From contig NC_079487.1 of assembly GCF_020520425.1 (NCBI RefSeq), forward strand, positions 134,562,385 to 134,626,384: 64,000 nt of DNA. The letters are read 5' to 3'. The position numbers and the translations under genes were made by a program. Source of the DNA: Spinacia oleracea. Taxonomy: Eukaryota; Streptophyta; Magnoliopsida; Caryophyllales; Amaranthaceae. Within the stretch, counting starts at the first letter, position 1, and each line of letters opens with the position of its first letter. A model generated the notes under the pieces. The model was not told where the DNA came from, did no database searches, and saw only the letters and a list, made by a program, of their open reading frames with translations. Positions 8,822-64,000 of the stretch are shown here, piece after piece.

Positions 8822-11800
8822 ATGGATTCAGATAGCGATTCTGATTGCTCTCACGTCTCTGCAACTCCACCCAGAAACTCAACTCCTTCTCCCCGACAAA
8901 AAATTCCCAGAAAACCCATCTTAAATGTCAAACAAAAACCACCCAAAACCCCACAAAAACCCTCTTCGATTTCCCCAAAATATCCACAAAAACCTCCTCA
9001 AGTTCAACACCCACTTCGCGAATCATCCAATTCAACCCTCCTCCCATGCTTTTCCCTCCCAATTAAACGACCTACTTTTAGTAATCCCGAAATTTCTGGG
9101 CCCAATTCTGTCAGGGCTGGTTTTTGTTCCTTTTCTAAATCTAATTCTTTCTCAAAGTTTCAGAACAATTCTCTTAATTTTGATAATGATAGTGAAAAGG
9201 TTCCGATTTTGCCAACTGGGGCGGGTTCGGAACCTGGGTTTGATGTCAATTTAGAAGGTGAAGGTGTTAGTTTGAAGAAAAGGGTAGTTAGGAGACCGTC
9301 AAATTTGATTGGGGGTGGAGCTAGGAGTGAGTCTAGTTCTAGCATAGCACCTGCAAAAAGGCTTAAAGGTAGTGGTGAAGGGAATTTTGTGAGGTTGAAT
9401 ATTAATGGGTATGGTAGTAAGAGGTTTAAGTTTAAGGGGAAGAATAGGAACTTTAGTTCATCAAGAAGAAGTAATTATTACAGGAGTAAGCGAAAATTCG
9501 GAGCGAAAAATGGGGATGGAAATAATGATGAGGAAGGTTTGGTTTTGGGGAGTAATGGAAAGCAGGTAAAGGGGGAGAGTGAAATGTCAAGTGTAGATGC
9601 TGAATTGATTAAAAAAGCTGTTTTAGATGTTAGGGACGAGGCGTCTGATGAGAATTTGGTGAGCTTATTGAAGCTTACACATGGTTATGATTCGTTTCGT
9701 GATGGGCAGTTGGAAGCTATTAAAATGGTGCTTTCTGGGAAATCAACTATGTTGGTTTTGCCTACTGGTGCTGGAAAATCACTGTGTTATCAGTTGCCTG
9801 CTATTGTTTTTCCGGGGATTACGATTGTTATAAGCCCCTTAATGGCTTTGATGATTGATCAGTTAAAACAGCTTCCTAATGTTGTGAATGGTGCTTTCTT
9901 AAGTAGTAGTCAGGTGAAATTTACTTCACCCTTTTAGTAATTTGTTAGTTTATCTTTTTGATGTTTTGCTAATTGGTTGATGTATGATATGTTTTAGTCG
10001 TTTGAGGAGATGTCTGATACTCTAAGCCTATTACAAGAAGGAAGCATAAAGGTGAATCTGTTGCCTTATAAGCTCAACTTGTGTGGAATAAACTTTATTA
10101 TAGTATGCATTTTCATTGAAATGCAACTAGTTTTAGTTACTAGAACTTCGGGTTTATCATGTTTTCTAAGTGATGGATTTTTATTGTTTTTTAGAAGGCT
10201 TGAGTGAATCAGTGTGCATTGTATGTTGGTTCTTGTATGAGTAATTCTTTTGTATGATTCAGGTGCTTTTTGTTTCACCAGAGAGGTTTCTGAATGAACA
10301 GTTTATCTCAATCATTTCCTCTTGCACATTAATATCACTCATAGTGATTGATGAAGCTCACTGTGTATCTGAATGGTCAGTGACTCCAGTTGGATTTCTT
10401 TTCTATTTGTTGTTTCAAAGTTGCTATATACATTTTCCAGTAGACTTGCTTTTCTGAGATTTGTTGCCTCAGGTCACACAATTTCCGGCCTTCATACATG
10501 AGGCTGAGGGCGTCTGTACTCCGTGATAAACTGAAAGCTGGATGCATACTTGCAATGACTGCAACAGCAACACAAAAAACACTTCATGCAGTTATGCATG
10601 CTTTGGACATTTCCTCAACTAATCTGGTGAAGACTCTTCAGCTGAGAAACAATTTGCAGTTGTCTGTGTCTTTATGTGGAAATAGCAAGTAAATATATTG
10701 CATTGCCTCTTATTTAACGTACTTTAACCTGATTAATAGCTGTATAAATGACTAGAACTTGTGTCATTGTGTTGGATGAACAGGATCAAAGATTTGATTG
10801 CAATAATCAAGTCATCCCCATATGCCGAACTCAAGAGCATTATTATTTACTGCAAATTTCAGGTAATTGGTAAAGTTTTCTTGTATTTTCAATGATTTCT
10901 CATGATAATGGCAATAAAATCCTATACTACTACTAAAAATGGATCTCCTAGTCTGTTAATATAACTTGAAGCTTTTGAAGGCTTTAGTTTACTTCATTGA
11001 ACCTATCTATGTTGTTAAAACAAATTCTGTTGCATGTATTACTTGCTTGACACGGAATGTTGGTAGGCGTGTAATCATATGCCTTTTGCTCTCCCTTGGG
11101 TTTTCAATGAGTGGAGAAGCATGCATGCCTTGTCCCTCAAAAATCACGGCTTTTGACATTCTATCTTTTTTCCACTTCTGTTTTTGGTGCAGTCAGAGAC
11201 TGACATGGTCAGTAAATACTTGAGCGATTATAACATTCGTGCAATGGTGAGTAGAAAAATCTGTTTAGTCCATTCACTTCAACTGTCTGGATATTAGAAT
11301 TCCTCTAAAAGTGTAACAACTGATTGATGTATTTTCTATGAGATTCCAGTGTTATCACAGTGGCATGATGGCAAAAGATCGTAGTCGTGTCCAAGCATTA
11401 TTTTGTTCCAACAAGCTCAGAGTGGTATAACATCATCTTGGCGACATTTCTTCGTCACTTGTAGTCTTGTAATTTTGTTCATCTAGTCATATATTATCTG
11501 TTTTGATGATAGGTTGTCGCAACTGTGGCATTTGGAATGGGGCTTGACAAAAGTGATGTTGGAGCTGTAAGAAAGTCTTACTCCAGAACTATTCTTTATA
11601 CAAGTATTTACATTTTTTTTTCCTGTACAGCAAGTAGAAGGAAATAAATCAAATAAATAGTGTCATAGCCATGCCAGTGTTTTTGATCATCAGGTTGATG
11701 AATTTAGTATTGCGCACATTAGATATTAGATATTCCTGTGAATTCCAGTAAACAAAAGCATGACACAAGGTGTTTTCTGGAAGGTAACAGAGAACAGATG

Positions 11801-16525: not shown

Positions 16526-19229
<2,704 letters not shown>

Positions 19230-21657: not shown

Positions 21658-21666
21658 TATATTTAA

Positions 21667-23414
21667 CGGTTTTTTCATGAAATATCCCCGAGGTTTGCGA
21701 AAACGCACCAAATACCCTCGCGTCTTTTGAATCACATAATATATCCCTATTTTTTCCCAAGTTTGCACCAAATACCCCTAAACCGACCTTCCGTTAATTC
21801 GTGTTTATAATTCACAGAATACCCCTATTTATAAACTAAGTGCACCAAATACCCAAAATATTTTTAAACTGCAGAATTTGATTTCCACAAATCGTTCACC
21901 TAATATGGGGATTGAGGATATGCAATTAATAATAGAAAATATTGTCACTCAAATCTTTCACCTAAAATATCACACTTTGTTTGACCAGCAATGGAAATGA
22001 AAGGGGGGCGTCTACACAATCACCACCCACAAACATTAGTCGAAAAACCAAATCATAGTGGTTCATTTCTATGTTAGTTCACCATCACCTCTGGGCTTGA
22101 ATTCACAGAAAAACAATAACTGACTAGTTTCATATCCCATAGATACATCAAGGTGGGGCAACAACTTAGCAAGGAAGTGCTAATAATCAACTGACTTTAG
22201 CTCACTCTAATAAAATGAGATCAAAATTACAAGAAAAAGAAAGGAACATGAATGTCATGATGAATTCAAGGGTGAAATATAACTAATTTCAACTAGAAAG
22301 CACAACCAAAGAATATGTAGAAATCAAAACTGTAGTAATCATCATCATCAAATTGTTATCTGAAATGGCTACTACAAATGACCAGCTATTTCATCTGCTT
22401 TACGATACCTAGGGCCTTGAACCCAAGCACCATCAATGGGGGCAATAACTCCAGTCAAGCCATCGTCAACAAAATCACAACCCTCTTCCCCTCTAAAACA
22501 GCCTTCACCGGCGCCAACTTAAGCTTCACACCAAAGTCCCTAATCCTCTGTGAAGGCTCGATAAAGTTTCTCCCCACATAATGGGACCTAATCAAACCCT
22601 TTTGAAAGGGCACACCAGCTTTCTCAGCATCCCCAAGAGCAGCAACAACCCCAGAATCAGGCACTGCAATAACCACATCACATTCAACAGGCGAATCAAA
22701 CCAAAGAAAAAAATCCTAGAAATCAAACGCCAATTTGTAATCAAAAGAACTAATCAACAACAAACCCAAGAATCACAACCAAACCACCGATCAAAATCCG
22801 GCGAAATTTTTCGATCCCTCGCCAAAAGACCCGAAACACATCCCTAATTCAAACCCAATGAGAAACTTCCTTCTACTGGGTAATTATAATTTATCAAAGG
22901 AAAGAGAAGAAGCTTTGTAGAGCTTTACTTGATAAGGAGAGAGAAAATAATTTGGGTTTGGAATCTGATCACGAGGATGATGCAAGTGAGGCTGTTGGGT
23001 TTGGAATCTGGTCACGAGGATCACCAACATCTTGCCCCCATTTGTAGTAGCCACTATACTTCAAAATCGTGGGTTAGGCTTGCCGGCGACCAGAGATCGG
23101 AGATCGGCCTCCGCCGGCGAAAAAAGAGCGGAGATCGGACGCCGCCGGCGACCAGAGAGCCGGAGGAAGAACATCGGAGAGGAGAGAGAAAAAGAAAGAG
23201 AAAATGGTTGAGATTTCTTTGGGAATTTTGTCAAAAAACATGTATTAAGGGCAAAATAGTAAAACGCGACTAACGGCAGACTAACGCCGTTAACTCAAAT
23301 GTGTATCTCATGAACAGTACGCAAAAATAGGGGTATATTATGTGATTCAAAACACGCGAGGGTATTTGATGCGTTTTTGCATGCAAACCTCAGGGGTATT
23401 TCATGAAAAAACCG
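21667..23414. mobile_element. Pack-MULE (Mutator-like element with captured gene pieces)
   Basis: The 1748-base element has terminal inverted repeats of about 90 bases: the left end CGGTTTTTTCATGAAATA and the inverse of the right end share most positions, including CAAATACCCTCGCGT and GAATCACATAATATA. A perfect 9-base target duplication, TATATTTAA, flanks it (21658-21666 and 23415-23423). Long inverted ends plus a 9-base duplication identify a Mutator-like element. It encodes no transposase. Inside is host-gene sequence, including an amidophosphoribosyltransferase piece (22455-22705, minus strand) and a GC-rich part (23060-23190) resembling a gene's 5' end. A 35-40 base unit containing GTTTGGAATCTG is repeated in tandem near 22955-23025. 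Confidence 0.9.
22455..22705 (-). pseudogene. Captured fragment of an amidophosphoribosyltransferase gene
   Basis: The minus strand reads [20 protein letters not shown], then [33 protein letters not shown] and AVLEGKRVV. This is the conserved core of glutamine PRPP amidotransferase (GPAT/PurF), the first enzyme of plastid purine synthesis. Only about 80 of some 560 residues are present. The frame is lost just after EGKRVV, before the PRPP-binding VDDSIVRGTT segment expected next. It lacks the start, the glutaminase half and the active-site cysteine, so it cannot make enzyme. The fragment lies wholly inside the Mutator-like element and was evidently copied from a parental gene elsewhere. After the break, the minus strand reads GVIAPIDGAWVQGPRYRKAD to a stop near 22375; I do not recognise that part. 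Confidence 0.85.
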
Positions 23415-23423
23415 TATATTTAA

Positions 23424-24427: not shown

Positions 24428-27400
24428 ATGGTGGCGACAATGTCGAACGTTCAAGTTTCACCTTCAACTTCGTCTTCTTCTTCTTCTTCTTCAACTGATT
24501 ATTCTTTGAATTCGTCATCAATTTTCACCAACATTCCTCTGATTTCCGCGCTTGTTGCTTTTGTTCTTGCTCAATCACTCAAAGTTCTCACCACCTGGTA
24601 CTGTTTCTGACCTTTCTTGAGCTCAATTTTGTTTATTGTTCGGAAATTTGGCTTCTCTTTATTGTTTTTCTTGATCTAGGTTTGACCTTAATGTTTGATT
24701 TTGATTTTGATGTGTGAAATTGAATTGCATGTTCATATTGCGAAGAATTTTTCGTTCTTGGGCTTTTGACGGGTTTCAATCTGATTTCTGAATTAGATTT
24801 TTAATGCAAATTTTATTATCTTGATTCTTGAATTTTAATGCAATTCTGGTTATATTTGGTAGTTTGATATTGGATTGGCTGGGTAATGATTATTGGCGAG
24901 CTCCTTAATTTGGTTCAAGAACACTTTATCGTTAGGTTATTGCATGTCATTTTGAAAGTTGGAAGCCTTCTTGGCGACAAGCCGACATTCATGAATCAAA
25001 TAATTTAGGAGGTTGTGGAATATGAAGACATTGTATTGGGATTTGGTATTGAATGATGATATTGGAGGTGATCATAGCATTAGTTAGTCATCGAAATGTA
25101 GATGTGGCGTAATAGGAAATTCCATGAAATTAAGATGCTATCGGGGTTATGATTAGAAGACAAGGTGATGTAAAGTACCATGTCATAAAGTTTTATAGCT
25201 CACTAATTACTTTTAGGGTCGACCTCAACAATGAGTGTGCTTAATGTTCGTGGTCAAAAGATGTTTGAACGTTCTATTATGAATCATGATTGTAATGAAG
25301 ACATTGTTGTTATTGGGATTTGGGATTGAAGGATGATATTGGAGGTGATCATAGTATTAGTTGGTTACTGAAATGTAGATGCGGCGTAGTGATAGGAGTT
25401 TCCATGAAATTAAAATGCTATCAAGGTTATCAGTAGAATATGAGATGATGTAAATTACCATGTTATGAAGTTAGAGTAATATTATAGCTAACCAATTACT
25501 TTTAGGTTCAACCTCAACAACAAGTGTGCTTGATGTTCGTGGTCAAAAGATGTTTGAAATTTCAAGTGATTCCTGATGAATCCACCTAGGGAAAATCGCA
25601 ATGGAAAAAAAAGGAGTCTAAGCCTTACTTGACATTTGTGTTTAAAGCCAAAGAAAAAATCATATCAAACCTTCACGTTTGATCAATCTTGTTTAAAGGG
25701 GTCCAAAATTGCTTCATAGTTCATACTCACCTATTAGAGTTATAGTATATTTTGCATTTGTGGACAGGAGACCTCAGCCCTCTACCATACAAAAAGAAGT
25801 AAAAAGAAAGTGAAATATGCATGAGATGCCTAATCCATTCCAGGAAATTTCCAAGTTCAAGCAACATTTTCTCGCTACTCTGAAAACCAGACTCTAAAGT
25901 CTAAACTCTAAACAGTAGCGGAATGCTATCAAGATCTATCTTAGCTGGTTAGTATTACTCTGTTTAACCATAGAGGCATGAACTGACCTTTCGTGTGTAG
26001 CCTAATAGTGATCTCTGCCCGTTGCTGAAAGACCCTTCAAGTAAACACCTTAGTTTTTGGCGGATTTTCCATGTCCTGGGCATTGTCCCTAAATATTTCT
26101 TGGTAAGTTGAACTTAAGAACTAGTGATATGTAAAGCCTGTTCCATTGACACATAGAAGATGGTCCATCAGCATAATAACATTCATTAGGCAGCAATAGG
26201 ACCAGTGCATAATGGGTTTAGTTTGAAGAAAATTCTATTGATAGTTATGGCATCAATCCGTTTGATAGACCTATGGATGTGCAAGATTGTATTTTGGCTA
26301 TGTCAACCAAAATGCCAGGTTGTGTAACACTGAATTTCGTAGGGGACTAGGGGGGCTATGAATTTAAAAATATGCTTTATAAAATTAAATTGATTTTTGA
26401 TTTTTGATTTTTGATTTTATTAACATGGATGATATGAACTATGAAGTATTGGTTTTCTTGTTGGGTTATTGGTGGTACTCTGTGGTTGCTACCATTCTAT
26501 TTCTAGACTTCATGTGCCGAGAGGCTTAAGGTTTGATAGATTTTCAGGTACAAGGAAAGGAGATGGGATCTTAGACAGTTTATTGGTTCTGGTGGAATGC
26601 CGTCATCCCATTCTTCCACTGTCACAGCTTTAGCTGCTGCCATCGGGCTTCATGATGGGTTTGGAGGTTCAGTATTTGCAGCTGCATTGATCTTAGCATT
26701 TGTGGTATGCTCTGCCCCACCCCTACATCTTTCCAAGTTAATGATTTTGTGAGCATTGAACATTCATGTCTGGAGCTTTCCCCTATGTTCTTTTTTTTTT
26801 TGGAGGGGGGGGGGGGGGGGGGGGGGGTTAGAGGGGTGTTTGTTTTAAGGGGATGTATCCCTGTTGTTCGGGACAATGGATGATTTCAAGATGTGGTGTC
26901 CTCGGAGAACTAACTATTGCACCTTCTTGTCAATCTAGTTTGCTGTTCTCTGCCTTTGCTAATTCATCTAATAGGGTGCAGTAACCACAGAGAAGCTAAA
27001 TTTACCTTTTTCCTGTGACACTCTTGTTGGAATAATCTTTTGGTGATGAGTTGTCATTTGACCGGTTCACGTTTAGTTTCTATGATTATATCAACTCGCC
27101 CTCTTTTAGTTCTCTTGGTTTTCTTAGATTTATTGGGCAATCTCTCAGTATGTAAGTGTTTTGCTGATATATACGCTATGCATGTCTAGACATTATTAAT
27201 TAGTTGCTTGTACTTTGTAATCGTGAATTTAATTGTTGCCTAATGGTTTTAATTCTCGTACATACTCAAGTTGGCGACCTTTTGCAGGTCATGTATGACG
27301 CAACTGGTGTGAGATTACATGCTGGACGACAAGCTGAGGTTGTTATTCCACTTCACTGCCATATCTCATCATTATTGATTTTATATGATAGTTAGTTGGT

Positions 27401-28350
27401 CTCTCAGCCTCTCACCACATTTTGGTTACTCGTGTTCTGCAGGTCCTGAACCAGATAGTGTATGGTCTGCCTGCTGAACATCCTCTTGCAGAAAGGAGTC
27501 CATTGAGGGAGCTTCTTGGCCATACTCCTCCTCAGGTTGGTCTAAAGCATTTATATATCTTCATTCTACAGGCTTAAACTTTTATATCTGATAATCTTAT
27601 GTACTCGTATCAAACTGTGAAAGAACTAGAGTATGTTGTAGTCAGGAGTTGCTAACCCTGGCTCCGCCTCTCACAAAAAGTATTAAACATTTGTGGTTTG
27701 CGTACTTTGTGCTTGAACAAGCAGGAAAATGCTTCTCTTCTTATATTTATTAAACTGCGATTTTTTTTAGATCCAAAAGGAAAATGTCTTGGTGTCCATA
27801 CTCGTGTCAGAGTGTCAAGGATATGGCACGGGTATTATGGATGATTTAAGAGCCCACGTATCGTATGATCTATACACACAGTCAGATAATACTCAAATCA
27901 ATTGTCTGCATTGTCTATTTTCATGATAAAAAGAGATTGACACATTTTTGTGGGTAAGGAGTGATTAAAAAGTATTAAACATCTGTGGTTTGCGTACTTT
28001 GTGTTTGAACAAGCAGGAAAATGCTTCTCTTCTTATATTTATTAAACTGCGGTTTTTTTTTGGGTCCAAAAGGAAAATGTCTTAGTGTTCATACTCGTGT
28101 CAGAGTGTCAAGGATATGGCACGGGTATTATGGATGATTTAAGAGCCCAAGTATTGTAGGATCTATACACACGTCAGATAATACTCAAATCAATTGTCTG
28201 CATCGTCTATTTTCATGATGGAAGGAGATTGACACATTTTTGTTTCATCTCCTATTATTATCACAGGTCGTTGCTGGTGGATTGTTGGGTATCGTAACAG
28301 CTACCATGATTTACGCGATCGTCAGTATTGCTACCCGGATTTCACAGTAG
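24428..28350 (+). CDS. DUF212 membrane protein, acid phosphatase/vanadium haloperoxidase-related
   Basis: Five exons, in frame: 24428-24597, 26548-26704, 27288-27338, 27443-27535, 28267-28350, giving 184 residues. After a Ser-rich start (a run of serines at about 14-22) comes a hydrophobic segment (LISALVAFVLAQSLKVLTTW), then the family signature GSGGMPSSHSSTVTALAAAI, MYDATGVRLHAGRQAEVLNQ, a short loop, and GHTPPQVVAGGLLGIV leading into a second hydrophobic stretch. This is the DUF212 family (bacterial YuiD, plant At1g67600/At1g24350/At3g21610). SSHSS resembles the histidine phosphate-binding motif of PAP2 phosphatases, but activity is not established as far as I know. ATG 24428 is first in frame; a second at 24440 would lose four residues. 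Introns 1 and 4 contain tandem duplications and intron 2 a 23-G run. Confidence 0.9.
25015..25562. repeat. Tandem duplication inside intron 1 of the DUF212 gene
   Basis: Two copies of about 260-275 bases, near 25020-25272 and 25292-25560, share GATATTGGAGGTGATCATAG, CCATGAAATTAA, GATGCTATC-like words and TGTTCGTGGTCAAAAGATGT. They are moderately diverged. Both lie far from the splice sites. Confidence 0.8.
26791..26827. repeat. T run followed by a 23-base G homopolymer
   Basis: In intron 2 of the DUF212 gene, eleven T (26791-26801) and GGA are followed by 23 consecutive G (26805-26827). Such a G run is rare in an AT-rich genome; it can form quadruplex structures and its length is prone to sequencing error. 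Confidence 0.75.
27675..28240. repeat. Tandem duplication inside intron 4 of the DUF212 gene
   Basis: Two copies of about 275 bases (27675-27951 and 27967-28240) share AAAAAGTATTAAACATYTGT, AACAAGCAGGAAAATGCTTC, GAGTGTCAAGGATATGGCAC and TCAAATCAATTGTCTGCAT. They are about 95 percent alike by eye. The second copy ends close to the acceptor at 28266. Confidence 0.85.
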
Positions 28351-29634: not shown

Positions 29635-35318
<5,684 letters not shown>

Positions 35319-36659: not shown

Positions 36660-39600
36660 GTGGTATCAGTTTTAGCCTCTTGCATAATATTTTATGATCA
36701 TGATTGTATGCAACATTATTATTTTGATTCAATTAAGGGAAGATTTATTTATGGCTTGAATTTGCACAATTAATATATGATATTAATTGATTGGAATCAT
36801 TAAATCGTGATTTAATTAATTTTTGCTCAAAATAAATTTATAAAATTCCGAAATTTTTATCACAGGGTCGAAATTAACAGTTAATATCACATAAAAATTT
36901 TCGGATTTTTTAAAATTAAATTCGTCAGATTTTAAATTATTTAATGGTTAATAAGATTAATCATGGAAATAATTTGTTAACAATTAAATATTTGATTTTT
37001 AATTTGTTAAATAAATCTACTAATTATCCCCTAATTTTATACAATAGCCGAAATTTTTTGGTAATTTTTTAACTAATTTTCGGAATTTTTGTATATTAAT
37101 TATTGAATTTGGTTAATTTTTATGTTTAATTCGATTAATCATAAAATTTAAGGATAACAATTAAAATTTTTGATTTTATTTGTTAAGAAAATTCAATAGA
37201 TCTGCCTGGTAATTTAATTCGAATTTTTCGGACAATAATTGTTATTTTCTTGAATTATTTGAATAAAATGAGATAATTATGCCTTAAATTTTGAATTCTT
37301 GTTAGATTTAATTTTAATAAAGAGTTTAAATTGAAATCTAACTTCTAACAACCCTAAAATTCAGTTTAAGGATTGTTAATTTATTCAAATTTTTTTGCCA
37401 TTATTTTCGGATAATTAAACCCTAATTAAATTGTTAATCTTTAACAAAAGTTGAATAAAGATTAATTTAATTTAGGTAATTGTTACCCAAATTAAAATAA
37501 CAACCACCGCGACGGTGGAGCCACGGTGGAGGATAATTAGGGCGGCGTTCCGGCGGGAAAAGGGAATTAAAAATTGGAAATAAGATCTCCTAATTTTTTG
37601 GAAAAGTTAGAAATTTTCTCAAATTAAAGATTGTTTTCCAAAAGGTTTTGGGAAATAGTCTGGGTTGAAGGTTTTGGAAATTTGGTTTTTTGGTTCGATT
37701 CTCATTTATTAATTGAAATTGATAAGAAGAGTTGGAAATTAACTTGGGTTTAGTTCTTCTAAATTAAAAATAATTTCCAAAATATATTTTGAGTAACTTG
37801 TAAATATTTTTTTTTGAAAAACATATTTTCAATGTTGAGCATAAATCCATAAATTTCCTTTCAAATGCAAATTTTTGATTAATAAGATTATTCTAGCCAT
37901 ATTTAAATAGTAATTGAATTAAAATAATAAAGTTTCCCAAATAACGTTAAACTTAAATTGTTTAAGTTTTTTAGTATTATTTTGGAAATGTTATTTGCTT
38001 ATTAATAGTTAATAAGTAAATAATTTTTGTCTAATATATTTTAATATTATATGCGTGTATGGAATATTATGATATTTTGCTACAGGCAAGTGACTAGTAT
38101 GGCCCAAAATAGGATAGAAAATACGATCTGCGTATCGTTTTGTATTCTTGTAAATTTTGAAATACGATCTGCGCATCGTTCTGTATTGTTGTAATTTAAT
38201 TTAAAAGTTTAAATTAGATTATAAAGTTCGTATTATGAGTTCGATGAAGTAAGAAGGTTCAATCTAAAATTCAAGGATGGAGATCCAAGAAAGATGAACA
38301 GGAACCCAAGAAGATTTGAGCTTATTTTTTAGGGGTCATACTAGGATCACATTTATTTTTTTTATGCATTTTATATTGCCTTAAAATGCCTATTGAGTTT
38401 ATGTATGTGGTTATTTAAAGCAATGTGTTCACTTTTAATTAACCAACATAGTAAACTTAGGTCCCAAATAATATTGAGTTTATGTGCTTTTCCATACAAC
38501 ACCTATAAAGCCTTAGATCATGAGTAATAGGTTCTGCCAAAGCAGGGTGTTGCTTATAATTCCGGGGATAGTAGGGTAGGTTTTTGAAACTTACATGTTA
38601 ATGTTTGGTTTAACTCAACAAAACTATCAAAAGACAAAGTTTTGGGTTTTGAAGCTAAGAGATAGGAAAATACAAAGAGTTGTTAACCTGTCTACCAAGA
38701 GTTATAATCAGTTATAATTAGTAAAATGTTTACTTACCTCGAATACTATAAATTAAAGTAGCAGGGCCAAAGTCCGTTTAATTGTAGTGGGAGGGGATCT
38801 TGGTTAATTCTTTATTCAATGGGGACTTCTAATTTTGAATAAAGGGTAGTAGTGAATTGAATTTGTTTAATTGCTACTTTTGATAAACATTATATTGAAT
38901 CTTGCTTTACTTTTTATTGTAGTTATCATGTCTGGTGCAAACAACTCTACTTTTAACTTGCGCCCTCTAATTGAAAAAGACAAACTGAATGCTACCAACT
39001 TCCTACAATGGCAAATGACTGTGAGAATTGTTCTCAGAGCGGAAGGAAAAGAAAGTGTTCTTGACAATCCTCTCCCTGAACCCTTGCCAGAAAATGCTAT
39101 TGCAGCTCAAAAGCGAGCTAGACAAACTCTAGAGGATAACTCCTTGCAAGTAACATGCTTGATGCTTGCTTGCATGGAACCAGAGTATCAAAAACGTTTT
39201 GATGGTCTGGGATGCCTACAGCATAATCCAGCAACTGAAAACTTTGTTTCAGAAAAATGCTAGATTGGAGAGATTTGAAGCAAACTGCAAACTTCTGGAT
39301 TCCAAGTTGGAAGAAGGGAAGCTCGTTGGTCCGCATGTGTTCGATTTGATTGGACATTTTCAGACCATGGAGAAATTGGGTTTCCCTTATCCTAAGGACC
39401 TGGCAACTGACATAGTCATCAGATCCTTGCCTGAAGATTTTCATAACTTTAAGTTGAACTTCTACATGCAAGGAGGGGAGGCTACCCTGCAAGAGTTGCA
39501 TGGTTCACTAATTCAGGCTGAGAGAAACTTACCAAGTAAACCTAAACATAAGGATGTTCTAATGGTTAGTAAAGGTAAGCAGTTCAAGAAGAAAGGGGCT

Positions 39601-42600
39601 CCCATGAAGAAGAACAAGGGCAAGGTAGTTGCCAATGAGAACTCTTCAACCAAGCCAAAGGCCACTCCCAAGGCTAAGGTAGCTGCTCAACATGAGTGCT
39701 ACCACTGCCACAAGATTGGTCATTGGAAGAGGAACTGCCCCAAATATCTGGAGGAGAAGAAGACTGGTGCTTTAACTTCAGGTATCTATGTCATAGAAGT
39801 TAATTTAGCTACAACTGCTTCTTGGGTATTTGATATCGCTTGTGGATCTCACATTATAGGTAATGTGCAGGGACTAAAAAGAAGTAGGAGCTTGAGCAAA
39901 GGCGAAGTGGATCTCCGAGTAGGCAATGGAGCAAGAGTTGCTGCTTTAGCTGTAGGAGATTATAGTTTACGCTTGCCTTCTGGTTTAATGTTAGAACTTT
40001 ATAATTGTTATTACGTTCCAGTTATTACCAAGAACATAATTTCTATTCCGATTTTGGATTCGGAAGGTTTTTCATTTCAAATTATGAATAATTGTTGTTC
40101 AGCATATTTGAATGGTATGTTCTATGTCTCTGCTAAATTATCAAATGGTTTGTATGTACTAGACTTACAAAACCATATCTATCACATAGAAAACAAGAAA
40201 CACAAACCAAATGATTTGAACCCTACTTACCTATGGCATTGTCGATTAGGCCACAAAGCTCAAAGCGCATAGAGAAACTTCATAAGGATGGAATTCTCAA
40301 ATCATTTGATTTTGAATCATTTGAAGTATGTGAGTTTTGCTTAATGGGGAAAATGACAAAATCTCCTTTCACAGGCTCAAGTGAAAGGGCCAATGATCTT
40401 TTAGCCCTCATACATACTGATGTGTGCGGACCTATGAGTACTTTGGCTAGGGGAGGGTACGGGTATTTCATTACTTTTACTGATGATGTGAGCAGATTTG
40501 GATATGTTTACCTCATGCGACATGAGTCGGAATCATTTGAAAAGTTCAAGGAATTCCAAAATGAAGTACAAAACCAACTTGGAAAGAAAATTAAAGCATT
40601 GTGATCCGATCGTGGTGGTGAATATTTATCTCAAGAGTTTGGTGATCATTTGAAAGATTGTGGAATACTTTCGCAATTGACTCCACCAGGGACACCACAA
40701 TTGAATGGGGTTTCCGAAAGAAGGAACCAAACTCTATTAGATATGGTTCGGTCCATGATGAGTCTTGCTAACCTTCCTGCCTCATTTTGGGGATTTGCGC
40801 TTGAAACAGCGGCATTCACACTCAACAGAGCTCCGTCCAAAGCAGTAGAAAAGACGCCATATGAGATGTGGACTGGAAAAGTTCCAAAATTGTCTTTTCT
40901 AAGGACATGGGGTTGTGAAGTTTATGTAAAACGTTTACTTTCTTATAAGCTTTCACCCAAGTCCGATAAGTGTCTTTTTGTGGGTTACCCAAAACAGACT
41001 AAGGGATACTACTTCTACAACCAAAGCGAAAACAAAGTGTTTGTTGCTCGCGATGGTGTCTTTCTGGAAAAGGAGTTTATTTCCAGAAAAACAAGTGGGA
41101 GTAATGTATATCTCGAAGAAATTCGAGATGAGCAACAAATGGATGAGGTTCACACCTCGTCAGAGACGACCCAGCATGAAAATGCTCAGGAGGCGGTGCA
41201 TTCCATTCATGCGCCTTCTACCGTCCCACTTGGAGATAATCCATGCGAAGTCCCTCAACTTAATGAGGTGGAAACTTCTCCTGTTGTTCCCCAACGTAGG
41301 TCTAGTAGGACTGTCATTCCGTCAAAGAGATATATTGATTTCCTTTTGACTGAAAGTTCTGAAATAGAGATTTTAGAACATGAGGAACCTACTAGCTACA
41401 CAAATGCTTTGACGAGTCAAGACTCCGAGAAATGGCTTGAAGCCATGAGATCCGAAATGGATTCGATGTTTGAAAATCAAGTATGGGACTTGGTTGCTTT
41501 GCCTGATGGGGTTAAACCCATAGGTTGCAAATGGATTTTCAAACTGAAAAAGGACAAAGATGGAAACATTGATGTCTTTAAGGCAAGACTAGTGGCAAAA
41601 GGTTTTAGACAAATTCATGGTATTGACTATGATGAAACCTTCTCACCAGTAGCCATGCTGAAATCCATTAGGATAATTCTTGCGATTGCTGCCTTTCATG
41701 ACTATGAGATCTGGCAGATGGACGTCAAAACCGCTTTCTTGAATGGGTTCTTGAAAGAGGATGTGTACATGACACAACCACAAGGTTTTGAAGATCCAAA
41801 CAGTCTAAGAAAAGTTTGCAAGCTTAAGAAGTCCATTTATGGGCTTAAGCAAGCATCCCGGAGTTGGAACCTCAGATTTGATGAGGCAGTCAAATCTTTT
41901 GGCTTCCTCAGAAATGAAGAGGAATCTTGTATATACAAGAAGTTGAGTGGGAGTAGTATTGCTTTCCTAGTCTTGTATGTGGATGACATACTTCTCATAG
42001 GAAACGACAAGACCATGCTTGAGTCAGTCAAGGAATGGCTTAAAAGTTGTTTTTCCATGAAAGACCTAGGAGAAGCTGAATACATCTTGGGAATAAGGAT
42101 CCATAGAGATAGATCCAAAAGGCTGATTGGACTTAGCCAAGAGACTTATATTGATAAGGTTCTTGCAAGGTTCAAGCTGGAAAACTCCAAAAGAGGTTTC
42201 ATTCCCATGCAACATGGCATTTCACTTGGCAAGACTCAGTGTCCTTCGACACCTGATGAGGTCAAGCGCATGAGTAATGTTCCTTATGCCTCTGCAGTAG
42301 GGTCCATTATGTATGCCATGGTATGCACTCGACCGGATATTGCATATGCTTTGAGTATGTGCAGCAGATACCAGTCAAACCCAGGAGAGGCGCACTGGAT
42401 GGCAGCAAAGAATATCCTTAAGTACTTAAGAAGGACTAAGGATGATTTCTTGGTCTATGGTGGAGATAATGAGTTGGTTGCCACTGGATACACCGATGCA
42501 AGCTTCCAAAGTGACAAAGATGATTTCCGATCACAATCTGGTTTCATATTTTGTCTAAATGGAGGGGCTGTGAGCTGGAAGAGTTCTAAGCAGAGTACCA

Positions 42601-43726
42601 TCGCAGATTCTACAACAGAGGCTGAGTATATTGCAGCAAGTGATGCAGCAAAAGAAGCTGTTTGGATAAAAAAAGTTCATTAGTGAACTTGGTGTAGTTC
42701 CTAGCATTGAAAATGGCGTTGAGTTATATTGTGACAACAATGGTGCCATTTCTCAGTCCAAGGAACCCAGATCGCACCAAAAATCCAAACATGTGCTCAG
42801 GAGATTCCATCTTATTCGAGAGATCGTTGAAAGAGGGGATGTGAAAGTAAGCAAGGTTCATACTGAGGATAACGTGGCTGATCCTCTGACTAAACCGCTT
42901 GCTCAACCTAAGCATGAGAGTCATACTAGGTCTATGGGGCTTAGGCATATGGGAGAATGGCTTTAGTTTGTTTACTTTATGTTTACAATTGTAAAGACAT
43001 TTATTATGCTTTGAATGTTTATCAATAAAAGTTCATTCTTATTTAATTGTTTGGTTTAGTATTAAATAAAATGTCCAAATAACTTGTGTTTTCAAATAGG
43101 ATTATCGAAAACGTTTTGATAATGGAACCCTATAAAGTGAACTGAAATCACAACTTATTAAGTCCCTAGTCTAAATCACTAAATTGGACATAAGTGATTT
43201 ATGTGAAGACTAGTATGTAATTAATTGATAGTGCAGTTCCATGGGCTATGGAGACATAGGGATGTCTAATTGATTATATGGATGTATACTTGATGCATTG
43301 TGACTTGACCTAACTAGATTCTAAAAGTAGAATCAAACTTCTATATTTAGTGGATTCCTTAGACATGAGTATGTCTTAATAACCACGAGACAATTAGTTT
43401 AACTTTGACGCTGTTAAACGCCGCGCCGTAAAAGGAGGTTATAAAGGCAGTGATCAGGTGGGCTAAGAATTGAGTGGGAGTTATGGTCATACAAGAGTGA
43501 ATAAGTCCTCCTATTTGATAGGAATGGTGTCTGGGCCTCTTGATGAGCGAGAACTGAAAATTGCATGGCCATGCGGAATGGGATTAAAAGTTAATCTTTA
43601 TTTGAACAGTTCGAACTCGGCGATCAAGAAACTAGAATTTGAGAATAACAGTGTGTTATCAAATTTTGGCATTAAGAGACTTAAGGAATTTAGCATTGCG
43701 TTCTTGTCTTCGGACAAGTGGGAGAT

Positions 43727-61692: not shown

Positions 61693-62141
61693 GAACGTTT
61701 CTAGGGTTTCTACTTGCTGAATTTCAATTTGTAGATTAAACACAAACACAACCCCCTAACATTTTGCCAAATAATTTCAATTAATTGCTCGTCGAACGGG
61801 TTTTCAAGCTTCGGAGCTGACGAATTTGCCGCAAAAGGTCCGCTTTTGCTATTAATTGCTCGCTGCTTCTCTCTCTTTCATTGTGTTTTTTTTAGTGAGT
61901 TACGATTTATATTCTCAGATCTGCATGATTTGCGATTTTGTGTAATTTTTTTGTTTTAGGGTTTTGTTTTAGGAGTTTCAATTTTCTTATATTCGTCGGA
62001 AACAGAAAAAAAATAAAATTGTTTCTTGTTTTATCAGTCTTTGAATTGCTTATATTCTAAAGATATAGAATTAGGGTTATTGAGCATTGAGGTGTGATTT
62101 GAATTGATTTTCCGAGTTTGGGGATATCTTTGATTGAATTC
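61693..62141 (+). promoter_or_regulatory. Leader region of the CDKG-type kinase gene
   Basis: The stretch between the duplicated CT-rich block and the ATG contains TCTAGGGTTTC near 61700 and T-rich, intron-like sequence (61850-62090). GCAAAAGGTCCG near 61832 could hold a leader intron donor, but no firm splice pair was fixed. Confidence 0.4.
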
Positions 62142-63913
62142 ATGGCTGCTAGAAGGCATGGGGGATACGACGAAATTGAATATAAGGACCGCAGCTCGGA
62201 TAATGATACGTCAAGGCGAGATATAGCTTATACAAAGGGTGAATATGATAGAATTAGGAATGGTAATTCGATAAAGGATCGGGAGATGATAAGGAGTAGA
62301 GATACAGCTAGGGTTAGGCAGAGGGATATTAGGGAAAGGGAGCTTGCTAATGGTGGTGGTTACCGCTCATCTTCTAGTAGAAGTGATTCAGATGGAAGTG
62401 GGGGTGGTGGTAGTGGTGGTGGAGGGGGAGGGGGAGGAGGAGGAGGAGGAGGGCCAAGGAGATGTGGGAATTCAACCAGGATTGCAGACCGTGAGCCTGG
62501 TGAGTTGTCGAGTGAGGATGGGTCTGAGGGTGCTATCGAGTCAGAATCACGGTTCGTAAAGGATAATGATGTGTCAAAGATGGATAATGGGGTTCAGTCC
62601 TCTCCTATGGATACCAAGAAAAGAAAGTTTTCTCCTATAGTATGGGATAGAGATGACAAGGGAGCTAAAGATGCATCAAAAAGCAGAGTTCTGTTGACTT
62701 CCGCTTCCCTTCCTCCTCAACCTGTTCGGAAATCGTACCAGCAGTTACCTGCCACAATGCCTGTTGAGAACAAGGAGGTATCTCCTGTTAAAAGTGACGA
62801 GCCCCTTGAAGATTTAGAAGTTTCTCTTGTTGATGCCTCTATGGAACAGGATCGTTCAGAAGATATTGTATCTGGGTCTCCTGCAGGACAGCACGTTTCA
62901 CCATCTCAGGAGAGACAGTGGGGGAATGGAGGAGAGGTTAAGCAGGTAGAAGATGAGGACTACATTCCCACTAGGCACATATCAGCCTCGAGGTGGGCAG
63001 GTGATGCTAATTCTCCTGCCGACGAAGGTGAAATTTATGATGATGAGATTATGCGAAAAAAGAGGAGAAAGATGCCTTCTTCTGAGTTTCTAGATACTAG
63101 GAGGAACAAGAAGTCATCTAGTCCAGAAGCCGGAGATGGTGCAAGAGATATTTCTGATGTAGCTAAGGGAAGATCATCAGATTCTGATGGAAGCATGCGA
63201 AGTAGACCTTCCAGTGGAGATCGTGGTCTCCGAAATGATGAGGACAGGGAGGATCATATGGAGGTGGATGATAGATATGATGACACTGACTCTAGCCTTA
63301 GCCCCAGAAGAGCTGATTCTGATTCCGATGATTATTCTAGTGAAACACCTGAACCTCCAGCTGCTCCTAAGAGAACTGTGAATATGCTTCAGGGTTGTAG
63401 AAGCGTGGACGAGTTCGAAAGACTGAATAAGATAGATGAAGGAACCTATGGTGTAGTTTACAGAGCTAGAGATAAGAAGACTGGAGAAATTGTAGCTTTG
63501 AAAAAGGTAAAGATGGAGAAGGAAAGGGAAGGCTTTCCATTGACTTCTCTGAGGGAAATTAACATTCTTTTATCATTGCACCACCCGTCAATTGTTGATG
63601 TCAAGGAAGTAGTAGTTGGAAGCAACCTTGATAGTATCTTTATGGTAATGGAATACATGGAGCATGATCTTAAAGCGCTTATGGAGACCATGAAACAGCC
63701 ATTTAGTCAGAGTGAAGTTAAATGCCTCATGCTTCAGTTATTAGATGGTATAAAGTATCTTCATGATAATTGGGTCCTTCATCGTGATTTAAAGACATCA
63801 AATTTGCTTATGAACAACCAGGGTGAGTTGAAGATATGTGACTTTGGATTGGCTCGTCAATATGGGAGTCCGTTGAAGCCATATACTCATTTGGTTGTCA
63901 CACTTTGGTACAG
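62142..63913 (+). CDS. CDKG-type (PITSLRE-like) cyclin-dependent kinase, first coding exon, cut by window end
   Basis: One long exon codes for the first 590 residues and ends at a donor (TACAG|GTGAGC) at 63913/63914; the rest lies beyond the window. The N-terminal 410 residues are an Arg/Ser/Asp/Glu-rich arm with a glycine tract (about 87-105), the SR-like character typical of kinases linked to splicing. The kinase domain begins near [20 protein letters not shown] (about 423), with the ALKKVKM lysine, the cyclin-binding helix [11 protein letters not shown] (PITSLRE class), [10 protein letters not shown] (about 547) and DFGLARQYG (about 567). From memory it matches Arabidopsis CDKG2 (At1g67580), which acts in splicing, flowering and meiosis. 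The start is the ATG in TTCATGGCTGCT; the open frame extends 24 bases upstream only through a TTG. The glycine tract is coded by GGA/GGT repeats and may vary in length. Confidence 0.92.
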
Positions 63914-64000
63914 GTGAGCAGAAATTCCACTTCTTGTATGTAAGTACTAATATCTGTCAACTCGGTGTAGCCTTTTTATTTATTTTGGCGGAGTATCTCT
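63914..64000 (+). other. Start of the next intron of the kinase gene
   Basis: T-rich sequence after the donor GTGAGC. The next exon, expected to continue ...VVTLWYRAPELLL, is not inside the window. Confidence 0.7.

Follow-up and report, generated by a model that had tools for sequence, protein, structure and literature searches.

The element described here shares with the Pack-MULEs of rice, tomato, and Arabidopsis long inverted repeats, a 9-bp target duplication, pieces of a gene, the lack of a transposase, and copies made by transposition; unlike in those elements, the captured part is the 3′ part of a gene together with its 3′ flank. In the available sections of PMC3310237, the terminal inverted repeats of Mutator-like elements (MULEs) are given as typically 100 to 500 bp and their target duplications as spanning 9 to 11 bp. 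The preference for GC-rich sequence in capture is described there as strong in rice and maize, and GC content as less variable in dicots. The same sections report the tomato Pack-MULE family PM-ZIBP, which has an identified parent and comprises 13 tandem-ended copies plus a single copy lacking tandem ends. For tomato, the combined use of an outer with an inner end is considered as aberrant transposition; the absence of a duplication around the internal ends is taken to argue against nested insertion, and nesting after which the duplication was lost is also listed as a possibility. Among 12 distinct tomato elements with a solo extra end, a second copy is given for only one (PMC3310237). In Arabidopsis, as recounted in the available part of a review (PMC13317346), neighboring Pack-CACTA elements combine their ends into hybrids that carry the intervening DNA. 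The uptake of gene pieces by Pack-MULEs is called unsettled in the parts available of PMC3310237 and PMC8277862. For spinach, the available portion of the genome paper's main text (PMC8668906) makes no mention of MULE or Mutator, and that of a Pack-TYPE survey (PMC8903248) makes none of spinach; we do not claim that the family is absent from print. Both terms, Pack-MULE and spinach, occur in the available text of a paper on sucrose genes.

The window, by which we mean the whole 64,000-nucleotide stretch of spinach DNA that was analyzed, sits on contig C1 of the assembly searched (894,210,420 bases in 242 contigs). The element occupies window positions 21667 to 23414 (1,748 bp). Inverted ends of about 90 bases had been proposed in an earlier note made from the letters of the window, and they hold on exact alignment. 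The left terminal inverted repeat (21667 to 21754, plus strand, 88 bp) and the right one (23323 to 23414, minus strand, 92 bp) align with a score of 66, compared with a best score of 11 among 300 single-base shuffles of the element. With 88 and 92 bp in the window copy, and 88 and 88 bp in a second copy (L006), these ends count as long and fall slightly below the typical MULE range. The perfect 9-bp target duplication reported in the same note is TATATTTAA, present on the left at 21658 to 21666 and identically on the right at 23415 to 23423; its length falls within the MULE range. As that note had also stated, the element contains no transposase: the sole listed open reading frame of at least 110 amino acids has 114 and no Pfam match. 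GC content is 40% in the element versus 36% in the window, a plain composition and not a measure of capture preference. A search for an empty site at another place in this genome was negative, the joined flanks matching nothing beyond the two flanks from which they were made (2 of 2 candidates scored).

Other features of the window include pieces of a copia-type retrotransposon with gag and reverse transcriptase domains (39166 to 42683), pieces of an actin-family gene (16859 to 18803, minus strand), and pieces of aromatic-ring hydroxylase C-terminal and FAD-binding domains (29635 to 32833, minus strand). A DEAD-box helicase piece lies at 8822 to 9937 and a protein kinase domain at 62118 to 63917. 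Tandem repeats of 1.9 copies each, with units of ~277 and ~292 bp, occupy 25034 to 25558 and 27675 to 28243, respectively.

The parental gene, which the earlier note had proposed to seek in the same genome, is intact on contig C6 (C6:135285615-135287342, minus strand). It is an intronless open frame of 575 codons with the Pfam domains GATase_7, GATase_6, Pribosyltran, and GATase_4; from these domains and from plant homologues, we take it to encode amidophosphoribosyltransferase. Three blocks of the element, all on the minus strand, derive from this locus. In parental order they comprise the catalytic core (codons ~355 to 433; window 22465 to 22698; 223/235 identical to the parent), the C-terminal codons ~538 to 575 with the stop codon and ~36 nt beyond it (22336 to 22487; 139/153 identical), and a 3′ flank from ~338 to 718 nt past the stop codon (21965 to 22339; 357/383 identical to C6). 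Missing between the blocks are ~312 nt of coding and ~301 nt of 3′ sequence. At the internal junctions, neighboring block alignments share 23 bases and 4 bases, respectively; the first is the deletion junction at which the core and C-terminal alignments run over each other. Past this junction the core continues out of frame. Because its DNA matches the parent, we could identify the core, as the note had, although the 69-amino-acid core by itself gave no Pfam match. The additional reading segment that the note had seen is indeed present, beside the core; rather than being unrecognized sequence, it corresponds to the C terminus of this gene in a different frame. Similarly, the segment delimited there as captured (22370 to 22705) is gene derived, but its true extent is larger, from 21965 to 22698 with the 3′ flank included. 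With MULE-type ends, 9-bp duplications, and a gene fragment that matches its parent, the reading as a Pack-MULE carrying a piece of a purine synthesis gene is sustained. So is the claim of a fairly recent capture: in the 3 of 22 copies measured, the noncoding captured flank differs from C6 by 2.7% (L006, 10/373), 3.0% (L041, 11/372), and 4.3% (window copy, 16/373).

Two related loci were considered as parents and rejected, the first of them for the 3′ flank. A paralogue on contig C1 also has a long open frame (a 595-amino-acid stop-to-stop stretch), but it matches the captured 3′ flank over only 31 bp versus 375 bp for C6. A piece on contig C4 (C4:41753899) has a longest related open stretch of 122 amino acids and does not match the captured 3′ flank. 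The parental 3′ flank itself (C6:135284897-135285277) diverges from that of the paralogue once past a repeated unit of 54 bp, and segments of the flank have matches of 82 to 88% identity on C2, C3, and C4. It is a rearranged gene end.

On either side of the captured gene lie sequences of other kinds. The left subterminal MULE sequence spans 21755 to 21964, and exact repeats of 21862 to 21904 were found at no fewer than 12 other places (best 40 of 155 candidates). At 22699 to 22705 is the right capture junction, followed by an interior without a clear source (22706 to 23048) and by a right subterminal module (23049 to 23414) that is shared elsewhere at 84 to 89% identity, either whole or over its last ~310 bp (best 40 of 1,876 candidates). 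Positions 22853 to 22990 match at 82% a stretch of contig C3 that precedes a reading frame with a JmjN domain (L072) by ~1.3 kb, and may perhaps represent a second captured piece.

The element is not a one-off: a search of the genome with window positions 22340 to 22740 (26 of 26 candidates scored) returned 22 copies, including that in the window. The remaining matches were the parent, the two paralogous places on C1 and C4, and one decayed relative on C3. The loci are spread over six contigs of 115 to 189 Mb each. Copies align over the element alone and their flanks differ, so the fragment does not run on past the inverted repeats. Eighteen of the 22 have a 9-bp duplication of their own, 17 at the exact ends and one (L018) with its last bases decayed. 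In two more (L009 and L014), the duplication encloses a longer unit; L011 has no recognizable target duplication, and the one copy without a call (L020) has its left end outside the sequence examined. Across the 17 duplications at exact ends, position 1 is T in 16 and position 9 is A in 15, and A+T content is 94% compared with 66% in the flanks.

Twenty of the 22 copies are a recent burst, with a mean pairwise difference of 0.55% (range, 0.07 to 1.12%). The window copy differs from these 20 by about 2.4% (2.1 to 2.7%), and L041 stands at a distance of 7.1 to 8.1%. Substitution rates in plants are 7 × 10⁻⁹ to 1.5 × 10⁻⁸ per site per year. At these rates, the burst would date to roughly 0.2 to 0.4 million years ago and the split of the window copy to roughly 0.8 to 1.7 million years ago.

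We conclude that the element is very probably a non-autonomous Mutator-like element, a Pack-MULE. It carries the 3′ part of one identified amidophosphoribosyltransferase gene in rearranged form and has transposed to 22 sites. The inverted ends would be recognized by a MULE transposase supplied from another place in the genome, which would mobilize the element in trans. Template switching in the course of repair or replication may have brought in the gene DNA, given that the parental gene survives intact and that the element holds a copied piece. Slippage at short matches could account for both internal losses and would leave overlaps between blocks such as those of 23 and 4 bases. Because of the frameshift and the lack of a start codon at its head, the captured piece would be expected to yield no enzyme.

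A comparison by eye of 100 of 228 exact ends with 150 of 1,960 transposase candidates turned up no autonomous partner that shares these ends. One candidate, L081 (C2:26187000-26194530), combines an exact end with a MULE transposase domain ~4 kb away, in an open stretch of 198 amino acids; next to this stretch is a distinct 1.68-kb element that has the ends in question. L081 was rejected as proof of a partner, given that the transposase domain lies outside the element. A MULE transposase domain in a 586-amino-acid open frame (C3:141702842-141703132) is located 4.6 kb from the copy at C3:141696617-141698225, which has lost a middle piece. This transposase is a possible partner or a chance neighbor.

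Copy L020 is interrupted by a nested element of 1,487 bp (L020:14-1500, corresponding to C1:123603806-123605292) with inverted ends of 112 to 113 bp (89% identical) and the 9-bp duplication TAGAAAATA on both sides. None of the three open stretches tested in this nested element (98 to 162 amino acids) has a Pfam match, and it is possibly another Pack-MULE. L009 and L014 extend past the right end of the element by 775 identical bases that terminate in another MULE end, and each of these composite units is enclosed by its own perfect 9-bp duplication (TTATTTAAA and ATAATATAT, respectively). Identity up to the outer end would also be seen if the two loci were one segmental duplication or chance neighbors and no three-ended unit had moved. 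This is highly improbable: the identity ends precisely at the outer ends, the outer flanks differ, each whole unit has a duplication of its own, and the 497-bp link recurs at full length and 99% identity at a minimum of 20 other places (best 40 of 141 candidates). At 8 or more of these places, exact ends 1,728 to 1,733 bp apart enclose the link (100 of 228 ends). Since the link lies within other paired ends and the duplications surround the whole units, we take the element to have landed in a member of another MULE family, after which its outer left end was mobilized jointly with the far end of that family. L009 and L014 thus suggest that the transposase may pair the left end of the element with the end of a different MULE and move the DNA between them.

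Such an amplified Pack-MULE family with an identified parent, in which some units have extra ends, resembles PM-ZIBP and the extra-end MULEs of tomato. Differing from tomato, where only one of the 12 elements with a solo extra end had a second copy, the composite is present here in two copies, and nesting followed by use of a foreign end can be read from the sequence. The Arabidopsis Pack-CACTA hybrids are similar in that the joined ends of neighboring elements give a larger unit with the DNA between them. They differ in that the present case involves Mutator rather than CACTA, nested rather than tandem elements, and an inner end that is intact rather than deleted.

The order in which the gene DNA was acquired was examined with the decayed relative at C3:32836893, which retains the left end; its right end was not found in the stretch examined. 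The bases of the right capture junction are identical in this relative and in copy L006, and neither of the two large internal losses has affected the gene stretch that the relative retains. Its 3′ flank tracks paralogue C1 (from position 1198 of the C3 locus) ~47 bp beyond C6 (from position 1245). The family segment at 21965 to 22339 is C6 specific, matching C6 over 375 bp and C1 over 31 bp only. These observations point to a two-step acquisition, in which the ancestor would first have taken up the coding part together with a 3′ flank that was not rearranged, as the C3 relative still shows; the line leading to the 22 copies would later have copied from C6 again, gaining the C6-specific flank, and would have lost two internal blocks. 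We rate this history at about even odds; against it, the C1-like flank of the relative rests on ~47 bp, gene conversion or rearrangement of the relative's left half could yield the same pattern, and the relative itself has many small gaps (81 gap positions in 993 versus C6). Informative sites in the coding blocks are also few, two joining the family to the C3 relative and one joining it to C6 (7 of 22 copies). Alternatively, one continuous stretch of C6 may have been captured once and then suffered internal losses, with the left half of the C3 relative replaced later. The three family blocks all lie in parental order and orientation, in keeping with such a single event, but a later C1-like flank replacement in the C3 relative is required; we regard it as conceivable, at somewhat less than an even chance.

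Divergence from the parent does not bear on this choice. In L006 it is lower in the 3′ flank (10/373) than in the coding blocks (23/359; Fisher p = 0.02), and the corresponding p values are 0.05 for L041 and 0.25 for the window copy. However, comparing L006 with L041 gives the same twofold contrast (flank, 8/374; coding blocks, 15/359), which rules out the lower divergence as a sign of a younger flank. Given that the copies differ likewise among themselves, the low flank divergence does not support a two-step history. On the remaining sequence comparisons, the two-step history appears slightly favored over single capture.

The earlier note had also raised the possibility that antisense or small RNAs from the fragment affect the parental gene. 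Pooled over the copies, 376 exact 21-base start positions are shared with the 3,696-bp C6 locus, including 152 in the coding sequence, and 146 are shared with paralogue C1; an effect on the parent is therefore possible. Small interfering RNA from captured sequence silences donor genes in maize, according to the available part of a review (PMC13317346), although silencing strength varies there with the importance of the donor gene. Here the parental open frame is intact, and we consider it unlikely that the fragment silences or tunes the purine gene.

The element thus belongs to a known kind, the Pack-MULEs, and its history can be read unusually well. A single genome contains the parent, a relative lacking the two large losses, an amplified family, and a moved composite, which makes the order of events testable. 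Tentatively, this Pack-MULE may have revisited the same parent, with the first captured piece providing the homology for copying of the 3′ flank, and may then have gained a third, foreign end through nesting and composite movement. If true, repeated capture together with composite movement would constitute a stepwise, self-reinforcing route for the growth of Pack-MULEs.
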